Assembly (NCBI RefSeq): GCF_004354985.1 | Contig: NZ_SMSK01000003.1 | Coordinates: forward strand, 186,001-250,000 | Length of the DNA: 64,000 nt | Reading direction: 5' to 3' | DNA from: Segetibacter sp. 3557_3 | GTDB lineage: Bacteria; Bacteroidota; Bacteroidia; Chitinophagales; Chitinophagaceae | Shown here: positions 13,343-18,876 of the stretch, piece by piece | Layout of the letters: each line of letters begins with the position of its first letter | Numbering within the stretch: position 1 is the first letter of the stretch | Program-made: the position numbers and the translations under genes | The notes under the pieces: model-generated | What the model was told of the DNA's origin: nothing | The model's database searches: none | Seen by the model: only the letters and a program-made list of their open reading frames with translations

Positions 13343-13877
13343 AACATTAACGTATCTCCCGTTTAACCACAAATCTATTCGCTGCTGCTTACAGGCAAAG
13401 CTGACTGCCCGGAAAACGTGTGGGCATTTAAGATCGGGTTTCGGGATGGTTTACCGGAGCCCGTCAGCTATGCAACCCGGAGCTTTGGTCCTGCTTTTCG
13501 CTATTAGTACCGCGCCCACGCACAAGGCCACCCACCGCGGTAGCTAACCGCTTCAATCAGGGCTATGAGGCCCGGCTTATTAACGCGTCCATACTGTTGT
13601 AGCTGGTACAACAAAAACAATTGTGAATTCCTAAACCGAGCAGATGAAGTAAACGGATTAATTAAGTGCGATAAACTAATTAACGATAAACAAAAAAGGT
13701 TTATTTATTTAATTAATGGAAATTAAATCCTGGCTAATAAGATGATTAATTATGCTAATTACATAAAATATTATTAAATAAATAGCTGCTTTTTTACAAA
13801 CGTTTTTGTCGATACAAATTTGGATGATGCATTATGGAAATATTTTCAGCCGGGCGTCTTACTGAAAAACATAACTC
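13343..13877. other. Intergenic region, AT-rich block before tonB
   Basis: No gene seen. From about 13660 to 13830 the sequence is markedly AT-rich with repeated TTAATTAA and AATTAA words, in contrast to the GC-balanced part at 13400-13600. It is likely the promoter region of the downstream tonB gene, although no clear -7 box could be fixed. Confidence 0.5.
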
Positions 13878-16237: not shown

Positions 16238-16792
16238 ATGAAACGTTTCGCCTTTGTTCTGTTATCCATTGTTTTATTTTCAAGTGCCTGTAAAAAAGAC
16301 CAGGTCAACAAACCCGCTGCCGATGTTAATGGCGTAACTGAGTTTACAGTTGCGGAAGAAAAAGAATTTACTTACACTTTCACTGCACCGGAAACACATG
16401 CATCTATCCTGAATTACAACGGAAAAAAACAACTCAATATAAAGTTTTCATCAGTCTACGCCGAGTCAACCAAGCCATTTAAAGCAGAGATTGTCATCAA
16501 TGATTTTACCGGCCCCGGAAAATATACACTCGATAAGGAAGGTACGCTTGCGGTAATGACAGACGATAACCGCGACGGTGACGCTTACTGGGCGAATTAT
16601 TACAACCAATCTGGTTACGGTTCTTATACAAAGCAATACTCACCGCGAACCTACCTCACGGTTACCCATGCCGCTAATGGTAAATTGGTTGCCGACATCG
16701 ATATGAAGTTGTGGCACAACCTGGTAGCTTCAGGTTATTCCATGATCCTCGATGTAGCCTGGAAAGGACGTGTAGTTGCTGAGCTGGAATAG
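16238..16792 (+). CDS. Hypothetical lipoprotein
   Basis: A 184-aa secreted protein with a clear type-II signal: MKRFAFVLLSIVLFSSAC, with Cys18 as the lipidated residue after a SSAC lipobox. The mature part starts KKDQVNKPAAD and then contains alternating strand-like segments (FTYTFTAPET, YNGKKQLNIKFSSVYAE, KAEIVINDFTGPGKYTLD), suggesting a beta-sandwich facing the periplasm or cell surface. No enzyme motif. No partner gene is close; the following 1.4 kb is repeat DNA. Function unknown. Confidence 0.85.
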   Translation: MKRFAFVLLSIVLFSSACKKDQVNKPAADVNGVTEFTVAEEKEFTYTFTAPETHASILNYNGKKQLNIKFSSVYAESTKPFKAEIVINDFTGPGKYTLDKEGTLAVMTDDNRDGDAYWANYYNQSGYGSYTKQYSPRTYLTVTHAANGKLVADIDMKLWHNLVASGYSMILDVAWKGRVVAELE

Positions 16793-17165
16793 AATTGGCG
16801 GATTGCGAATTAGCGGATTATCGGATGGCGGATTACAACCGCGGAGAAGGGGAGAGGCAGAGATTTCGCAGAGAGAACTAGATTAGCGGATTACGGATTG
16901 GCGAATAGCGGATTGGAACGGGAGAGAAAAAGATTGGCGGATTACGGATTGGCGGATTACTGATTGGCGAGGATTACCGCGGAGAAGGGGAGAGGCAGAG
17001 ATACCGCAGAGTTCTTTTTTTACATTTTACATTTTTCATTTTCAAACCGCAGAGAATTGGAGAGGCAGAGTTTGCGCGGAGTTCTTTTTTTACATTTTAC
17101 ATTTTTCATTTTCCAACCGCGGAGGATGGGAGAGGCAGAGATTTCGCACAGTTCTTTTTTGGAGT
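16793..17165. repeat. 'gcggatt' words and three 70-bp repeats
   Basis: 16795-16970 consists of variants of GCGGATTACGGATTGGCG. Then a 70-bp unit starting ACCGCGGAGAAGGGGAGAGG and ending in a TTACATTTTACATTTTTCAT word occurs at 16976-17045 and 17046-17115, with a truncated third copy from 17116 to ~17160. A partial copy of the purine-rich part is also at ~16838. No coding sequence. Confidence 0.8.
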
Positions 17166-18159
17166 GCATCATATAAAGACCGGTAATCATTGCAGCAGCC
17201 GATGTATAGCAGCAACTGCCCGGTCACAACGAAAGCTCCGCGTTGATAAAAACGCGTCATCATAAAGACCGGTGATTATTGCAGCAGCCGATTTTATAGC
17301 AGCAACTGCCCGGTCGCAACGAAAGCTCCGCGTCGACAAAAACGCGTCACCATAAAGACCGGCAATTTTTACAGTAGCTGATTTGTAGCAGCAGCTACCC
17401 GGTCACAACGAAAGCTCCGCGTTGATAAAAACGCGTCATCATAAAGACCGGTGATTATTGCAGCAGCCGATTTTATAGCAGCAACTGCCCGGTCACAACG
17501 AAAGCTCCGCGTTGATAAAAACGCGTCACCATAAAGACCGGCAATTTTGCAGCAGCCGATTTTATAGCAGCAGCTACCCGGTCACAACGAAAGTTCCGCG
17601 TCCATAAAAACGCGTCATCATAAAGACCGGCAATTTTTGCAGCAGCTGATTAACAGCAGCAGCTGCCCGGTCACAGCGAAAGCTCCGCGTTGATAAAGCG
17701 CGTCATCATAAAGACCGGTAATTATTGCAGCGGCCGATTTTACAGCAGCAACTGCCCGGTCACAACGAAAGTTCCGCGTCGAAAAAGCGCGTCATCATAA
17801 AGACCGGTGATTATTGCAGCAGCCGATTTTATAGCAGCAACTGCCCGGTCACAACGAAAGCTCCGCGTTGATAAAAACGCGTCATCATAAAGACCGGCAA
17901 TTTTGCAGCAGCCGATTTTATAGCAGCAGCTACCCGGTCACAACGAAAGTTCCGCGTTGATAAAAACGCGTCATCATAAAGACCGGCAATTTTTGCAGCA
18001 GCTGATTAACAGCAGCAACTGCCCGGTCACAACGAAAGCTCCGCGTCGAAAAAAACGCGTCATCATAAAGACCGGTAATTATTGCAGCAGCCGATTTTAT
18101 AGCAGCAACTGCCCGGTCACTAAGAAAGTTCCGCATTAATAAAAACGCGTCATCATAAA
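17166..18159. repeat. Eleven-copy ~89-bp tandem array with higher-order structure
   Basis: AAAGACCGG starts a unit at 17175, 17264, 17354, 17443, 17533, 17622, 17710, 17799, 17889, 17978 and 18067 (spacing 88-90). Every unit holds GACCGG...CCGGTC arms around a GCAGCAGC-rich centre, and a second hairpin typified by CGCGTT-GATAAA-AACGCG. Units 4-7 and 8-11 are the same four variants in the same order, 356-357 bases apart, so a four-unit block was duplicated. The period is not a multiple of three, so it is not protein coding. There are no unique spacers, so it is not CRISPR. Confidence 0.95.
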
Positions 18160-18222
18160 CAAGTCATTTAAAAAAATAAACCTGGAAAGGTAAACTCGGT
18201 TAGCTTCATGTTTCAGTGTTTG

Positions 18223-18249
18223 AGCCTGTGTTTTTACACAGGCTTTTTT
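18223..18249 (+). terminator. Rho-independent terminator after the tandem array
   Basis: AGCCTGTG (18223-18230), loop TTTTTA, CACAGGCT (18237-18244) followed by a T-run to 18249. The T-run follows only on the plus strand, so it ends transcripts that come from the array side, not the minus-strand gene that stops at 18253. Confidence 0.8.
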
Positions 18250-18252
18250 GTG

Positions 18253-18855
18253 CTACGTAGTCACACTGCCCTGGCGGGCAATAATGAAAGCTATCGTATC
18301 GTCGACACTTATGCCAGCGCGATCCAGTGCGTCATAAATCTCGTCGCGGTTAACGCTTGCCGCAAATGCTTTTTCTTTCAAGCGCTTCTTTACACCCTTT
18401 ACGTCCATGCCCGTATAGCCGCCCGGGCGCATTAATGCGTAAGCGTGTATCAAGCCGCTCAATTCGTCGAAAGCATACAACATTTTATCCATTGCACTCA
18501 CCGGTGCTACGCCAAAATGAGCTGGACCATGTGAAGCAATTGCGCGTAAAATTTCCGGATCCACTCCTCGGTTCTCCAGCTCTTCTATGATCTTCCTGCA
18601 ATGCTGGTCAGGCCACTGATCCCAGTCTGCGTCATGTAGCAATCCGGCCATTTCCCATCGCCATTGTCCCGCTTCATCAAGTTGCAGTTTCTCGGCGGCC
18701 CAGCAATGCATCAGGTGTGCAACCTGCTTCATATGTAGTTTAAGCCGGTCATTTAACACCCAGCTGTCGAGCAAAGCAAGCGCTTCCGCTTTCGATAGCA
18801 CATTTCCCGTATTTGCAGGGTCGCCAAATTCCGTCCGGTTTAGTTGTAAACTCAT
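18253..18855 (-). CDS. HD-domain phosphohydrolase-like protein
   Basis: A cytosolic metal-dependent phosphohydrolase candidate of the HD superfamily; substrate unknown. The sequence shows the ordered metal ligands: His in LKLHMKQVAHLMH, the HD pair in GLLHDADWD, a downstream SHGPAHFG, and a final Asp in AFDELSGLIHAYALMRP. About 200 residues, normal for the small HD proteins often found in Bacteroidota. I place the start at the internal Met (MSLQLNR, 18855); the seven residues before it (MNFDFTP) are read from a 'caaaattcaaaagtaaaaag' low-complexity repeat and are unlikely to be native. Stands alone. Confidence 0.82.
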   Translation of the reverse strand: MSLQLNRTEFGDPANTGNVLSKAEALALLDSWVLNDRLKLHMKQVAHLMHCWAAEKLQLDEAGQWRWEMAGLLHDADWDQWPDQHCRKIIEELENRGVDPEILRAIASHGPAHFGVAPVSAMDKMLYAFDELSGLIHAYALMRPGGYTGMDVKGVKKRLKEKAFAASVNRDEIYDALDRAGISVDDTIAFIIARQGSVTT

Positions 18856-18876
18856 TGGTGTAAAGTCAAAATTCAA

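Follow-up and report, generated by a model that had tools for sequence, protein, structure and literature searches.

An eleven-unit tandem array of paired hairpins between convergent genes of Segetibacter sp. 3557_3: a probable lineage-specific intergenic minisatellite

The window analysed here is a stretch of 64,000 nucleotides from Segetibacter sp. 3557_3 (assembly GCF_004354985.1, contig NZ_SMSK01000003.1, positions 186,001 to 250,000), and positions given without a contig or locus name are those of this window. The array which is our subject (the focal array) sits between two convergent open reading frames (ORFs), viz. a 184-aa ORF on the plus strand and a 207-aa ORF on the minus strand. 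The features of this region are as follows.

16238 to 16792, plus strand: 184-aa ORF directed at the array, weakly similar to NF052634 (29 bits, cut-off 57)
16976 to 17160, no strand assigned: unrelated 70-bp tandem array of 2.6 copies, abutting the focal array
17168 to 18149, no strand assigned: focal array of 11 units, with a partial unit edge continuing to 18159
17168, 17257, 17347, 17436, 17526, 17615, 17703, 17792, 17882, 17971 and 18060: starts of the 11 units
17178 to 17225, minus strand: hairpin A of unit 1, with outer stem GACCGG/CCGGTC and an inner stem of the minus-strand GCAGTTG/CGGCTGC type; counterpart in all units
17239 to 17256, minus strand: hairpin B of unit 1 (CGCGTT/AACGCG, loop of 6 bases), likewise with a counterpart in all units
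17436 to 17791, no strand assigned: units 4 to 7, first copy of a four-unit series
17792 to 18149, no strand assigned: units 8 to 11, second copy of this series, a good match only for units 8 to 10
18222 to 18250, plus strand: terminator-like hairpin of 10 pairs with a T tail, past the array (consensus match only)
18253 to 18876, minus strand: 207-aa ORF reading toward the array

By our reading the N-terminus of the 184-aa ORF is lipoprotein-like, and the 207-aa ORF carries what we take to be an HD-like motif, with no match in Pfam, NCBIfam or PADLOC. None of the 133-aa, 184-aa and 207-aa ORFs matches a family above cut-off, and Pfam gives a TonB C-terminal match among the flanking ORFs. Much of the 370 bases preceding the focal array consists of other tandem repeat, and sequence similar to the 70-bp array occurs in 5 other 1-kb bins of a 724-kb sample of the genome. 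Elsewhere in the window, a match to the Flavo-1 RNA is present on the minus strand at 13483-13568 (49.3 bits, gathering score 42); this match and the TonB one are in keeping with Bacteroidota. Due to the convergence of the two ORFs and the positions of the terminator-like sites, transcripts of the plus strand could traverse the array as far as the hairpin at 18222, and those of the minus strand could enter it from the 207-aa gene. A weak terminator-like match lies on the minus strand at 18149-18132, in unit 11, the one nearest to the 207-aa gene; the scan gave 4 terminator-like sites as against 5.1 in shuffled sequence, i.e. no excess.

The units of the array are direct and arranged head to tail, and they align over their full length without spacers. 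Tandem Repeats Finder reports a period of 89, 11.1 copies and 88% matches at 17169-18159, and when the array is split on AAAGACCGG the unit spacing is 89, 90, 89, 90, 89, 88, 89, 90, 89 and 89. All six frames are closed, with 13-22 stops each and a longest open stretch of 75 codons, which rules out a coding repeat. Thus, the eleven units of 88-90 bases and the non-coding nature of the array, both claimed in a preliminary description made from the sequence alone, are borne out. The longest exact internal repeat of the array is 97 bp, in an assembly of 35 contigs. The same description regarded units 4-7 and 8-11 as one variant series, so that a block of four units was copied. The offsets between the two sets are 356, 356, 356 and 357, and permutation of the unit order gives p = 0.026 for the best four-unit run over all lags. 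The block copy is upheld for units 4-6 versus 8-10, as the pairs 4/8, 5/9 and 6/10 differ at 0, 3 and 6 positions respectively, but not for units 7 and 11, whose 10 differences are about the average for unit pairs. Unit 11 is nearer to units 4 and 8 (6 differences) than to unit 7, and unit 2 differs from units 4 and 8 at only 3 positions.

Each unit was described earlier as keeping two dyads, and this has stood. The pattern GACCGG-N(25-45)-CCGGTC is present in all 11 units with the dyad invariant, and in 100 dinucleotide shuffles of the window it occurs on average 0.06 times, with a maximum of 1. In hairpin B, both CGCG arms are intact in 10 of the 11 units. The further claim, that shorter units retain these arms and the last one decays at its edge, is likewise correct: hairpin B of units 6 and 7 is one base shorter with the CGCG arms retained, and in unit 11 one arm is CGCA on the plus strand, giving one G-U on the minus strand, with additional changes at the edge of the unit. 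When the units are cut at their exact borders, their fold z values range from -0.84 to -3.89 on the plus strand and from -1.36 to -3.55 on the minus strand (n=11), and in a frame fixed at 89 bases they average -2.23 and -1.93, respectively, although these eleven values are not independent, as the units share a common ancestor. Random 89-base windows of the same genome have a mean of -0.20 (sd 1.09). Fifteen other arrays of this genome, picked by hand from the survey list described below, served for comparison. The ten with at least 3 windows have fold z values between -0.83 and 0.55, except for L073 on the minus strand (1.49), and among the five with 2 windows L063a (-4.00 on the minus strand) and L078 (-2.08, -1.50) fold strongly. 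The array structure is thus real and unusual for this genome, and the focal array is not typical of the array background of its own genome. A role of the hairpins as a requirement for amplification is unsupported, because the larger arrays L085 and L097a have fold z values near zero (between -0.22 and 0.52).

Variation among the units is also distributed unevenly. The outer stems contain 1 variable column of 20, compared with 25 of 56 among unpaired columns (Fisher p = 0.0009, for stems chosen after the alignment had been inspected). When single-unit folds are taken as the structure, variation is depleted in paired columns with a one-sided p of 0.017-0.22 on the minus strand and, more strongly, with p from below 0.001 to 0.052 on the plus strand. 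In the comparison of the changes within stems with column shuffles, covariation is not significant, as the observed values are reached in 97-142 of 500 shuffles on the minus strand and in 109-287 of 500 on the plus strand; there are two pairs with changes on both sides, a number reached by 97 of 500 shuffles. Structures slid along the alignment score lower than the actual one, which was itself derived from these same sequences. The preliminary description had taken the stems in every unit to suggest selection on RNA or DNA structure, or a protein-binding array. The unusual folding and the nearly invariant outer stems agree with such selection, but covariation does not rise above shuffles. As the changes read on the minus strand mostly keep pairing, while covariation is not significant and many arrays of this genome do not fold unusually, selection on the array structure is no more than suggested.

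Within its own genome the covariance model built from the units matches the 11 units at one locus and none beyond it, up to E = 10. No match to it was found in 293 other genomes of the family, in 395 other genomes of the order sample or in 394 other genomes of the phylum sample, these three sets being overlapping. The model has a low information content (0.634 bits per position) and spans the variation of its own array only, and weak relatives could be missed in the large searches because 11-14 first-look candidates were scored per genome under strict filters. A BLAST query of two units gave no match in 58 other relatives, including 9 congeners. An origin from a mobile element or phage was also considered and rejected, as the array has no match in phages and plasmids, in searches which reach similar sequence only, and two array patterns have none in viral contigs. 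The pattern of the 21-base linker has 3 single matches, in unrelated lineages, among the genomes of 84,980 species, and these are judged to be chance, about one being expected by our estimate. In Rfam 15 the array has no family at the gathering score (7 permissive matches are far under the cut-offs), and no description of such an array was found in the titles and abstract openings of the papers that literature searches brought up. The 207-aa protein has a match in 8 of the 10 genomes of the genus including its own (in G005 as two weak pieces), i.e. the gene is matched in 7 of 9 congeners. Around these seven matches no tandem repeat (period at least 12, length over 60) is present, which rejects a conserved array beside this flanking gene in the congeners that have it, and in each of the 6 congeners looked at more closely a different ORF, 80 aa or longer, starts 14-174 nt past the stop of the gene. 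The preliminary description had held that absence from all relatives, together with a lack of structure-preserving changes, would mark the array as neutral slippage debris. The first of these holds in all of the genomes searched; the second does not hold, as variation avoids the outer stems and the changes read on the minus strand mostly keep pairing, yet the covariation check is not significant.

Tandem arrays are numerous in this genome. A sample of 1.124 Mb, which includes the window and is non-random (runs on contigs C29, C22 and C30 and contig starts), contains 42 arrays of period at least 30, or about 37 per Mb, and 26 of these 42 are crossed by no open frame of 100 codons or more. In the congeners G003 and G009, there were 1 and 0 such arrays, respectively, in 200 kb each. 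Because 42 arrays were sampled and 26 of them lack an open frame, intergenic tandem amplification is common in this genome. Ranked by score, only two non-coding arrays, with periods of 113 and 264 bp, precede the focal array, and they belong to the following loci on contigs C22 and C30.

L085, 4787 to 6729: non-coding array, 17.3 copies of 113 bp
L097, 6213 to 9736: non-coding arrays, 6.2 copies of 264 bp and 4.3 copies of 130 bp

By eye, the units of these two loci contain sequence like CGTCATTGCGA...GAAGCAAT, which resembles the CGTC-tagged repetitive extragenic palindromes (REPs) described in PMC3733652. The sequence CGTCATTGCGA has 37 occurrences across the 1.124-Mb sample, spread over 7 three-kb bins, as against 1 and 0 in 200 kb of two congeners; clusters of the CGTC-tagged class are, according to PMC3733652, rare outside Neisseriae and Wolbachia. 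Another array, at L063:9905-10588, is non-coding with 2.7 copies of 249 bp, has a mean minus-strand z of -4.00 (2 windows), and gave no Rfam match. In the 724-kb sample the focal array has no second place, whereas 14 of 19 other arrays have one, and three other arrays of the window recur in 5, 6 and 4 further 1-kb bins.

These results are to be set against several explanations of the array. One of them is that its minus strand specifies a tandem structured RNA, which could be a prolonged 3' UTR belonging to the 207-aa gene or else a small RNA processed into single units; the two hairpins of each unit would bind a protein or another RNA. In support of this reading, 205 of 209 cells are paired on the minus strand and 186 of 209 on the plus strand (gaps scored as broken), and three inner-stem pairs include cells which pair on the minus strand only, one of these pairs running from C-G through U-G to U-A. 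On the minus strand, changed cells that keep their pairing outnumber those that lose it whichever of the 11 units serves as reference; on the plus strand this is so for 3 of 11, and for the other 8 the broken cells prevail. The whole array folds at -379 kcal/mol on the minus strand versus -288 kcal/mol on the plus strand, values which carry no shuffle control. If any RNA function exists, the pairing points to the minus strand rather than to the plus strand, on which the preliminary description proposed to look for a transcript. However, two of the minus-strand breaks (unit 7, columns 40-61, and unit 6, columns 6-13) pair on the plus strand, the mean unit fold z does not separate the strands, and the depletion of variation in paired columns is at least as great on the plus strand. 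The covariation result, the terminator-like match in unit 11, the lack of an Rfam family and the absence from every relative searched also count against this reading. Six promoter-like matches on the minus strand lie within the units, but they follow the E. coli consensus, and the scan gave 11 in all compared with 6.0 (sd 2.3) in shuffles. We regard a minus-strand RNA as unlikely, though as a serious minority alternative. Its more specific form, in which eleven two-hairpin units amplified recently in one species would constitute an orphan RNA locus, maintained by selection on the fold and serving a protein as a scaffold or as a decoy with many sites, is quite improbable.

An explanation in terms of DNA, where a protein would recognise the dyads and the array would act as a boundary or an anchor, is about as improbable. 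In its favour, the dyad GACCGG/CCGGTC is invariant in 11 of 11 units at a nearly constant spacing of 88-90 bp. However, units 6 and 7 deviate by one base in the spacing of the hairpin B arms, the array is at a single locus, and outside it the dyad pattern occurs once genome-wide, in unrelated sequence on contig C35, as against 10 matches for the reversed control pattern; the candidate binding proteins considered were the flanking ORFs.

Very improbable is an array of the REP/BIME kind which has lost its transposase. The units are palindromic and intergenic, lie between convergent genes and would form hairpins in any transcript, as REP/BIME elements do, and there are three matches over cut-off to Y1 transposases in this genome, two of them near arrays which are palindromic by eye. 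One of these RAYT-like matches (C29:359188-359532) is followed by a long palindromic array of type TGCCCCAGCGGGGCA (L126, G000:C29:357500-362000), and this locus looks like a REP-transposase pair with its own repeats stacked alongside. The second (C22:14538-14780, with an internal stop) is about 0.5 kb from the array L078:15276-16091 (L128, G000:C22:12000-18000), and the third is at C3:3158-3499. This reading is nevertheless disfavoured because dispersed copies are absent from the genome. In addition, no linked RAYT transposase is found at this locus, the one on the same contig being about 155 kb away (C29:359188 versus the array at C29:203168). According to PMC3733652, the stem of a REP has at one of its ends an unpaired tag, GTAG or CGTC, and by eye no focal unit has either tag at its stem foot. 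GTAG is seen by eye only in some units, inside the inner stem, and the CGTC following hairpin B overlaps a stem of 6 bp with a 6-base loop, compared with 8-9 bp and 4-5 bases in the REP class.

Two other known systems may be dealt with briefly. The array is not a CRISPR array, as its units adjoin one another directly, with no unique spacers between them, and can be aligned throughout. With type III toxin-antitoxin systems (ToxIN, CptIN) it shares tandem repeats with the potential to fold into RNA units, but the unit length and arrangement of these systems differ from those of the focal array, and no toxin-like match was found in the flanking ORFs (7 compared with Pfam and 5 each with PADLOC and NCBIfam); since three of these ORFs (207, 184 and 133 aa) match no family above cut-off, a diverged toxin could be among them.

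The explanation which we favour, with a probability of roughly 0.6, is that recombination has amplified a hairpin-bearing seed into an intergenic minisatellite specific to this lineage. It is favoured because the array is at a single locus, with none in the other genomes searched and none near the flanking gene in the congeners that match it, and because the array abuts another tandem array in a genome with many arrays and its covariation is not above shuffles. The atypical fold z, the near-invariant outer stems, the pairing kept on the minus strand and the lack of any other place in the 724-kb sample, unlike most other arrays tested there, count against it. According to this explanation, a short hairpin-bearing intergenic sequence between the convergent genes would have been duplicated head to tail, in a genome that contains many amplified intergenic sequences, and the array would then have grown and been partly homogenised via unequal recombination or slippage, probably with one copy event of at least three, perhaps four, units. 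The stems would have been present in the seed and the copies would be young. We infer this mechanism of amplification, as well as the lack of a dedicated function, from the observations above. A read-through transcript would fold as a row of hairpins, which could passively form a 3' end or keep the two convergent genes apart as a barrier.

As in other minisatellites or VNTR loci, the focal array consists of intergenic, non-coding, near-identical direct repeats of tens of bases, and its copy number is presumably variable. It differs from them in the fold of its unit, which is better than that of most of the other arrays tested in its own genome. The mycobacterial MIRU, an example of this kind of repeat, are dispersed, whereas the focal array is at one locus. 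If the array is a minisatellite only, it provides an example from an array-laden genome, of use in studying how arrays start and spread, and it may serve as a typing marker. If instead the minus-strand pairing bias is functional, then it would represent a multi-unit non-coding RNA born in one lineage by tandem amplification.
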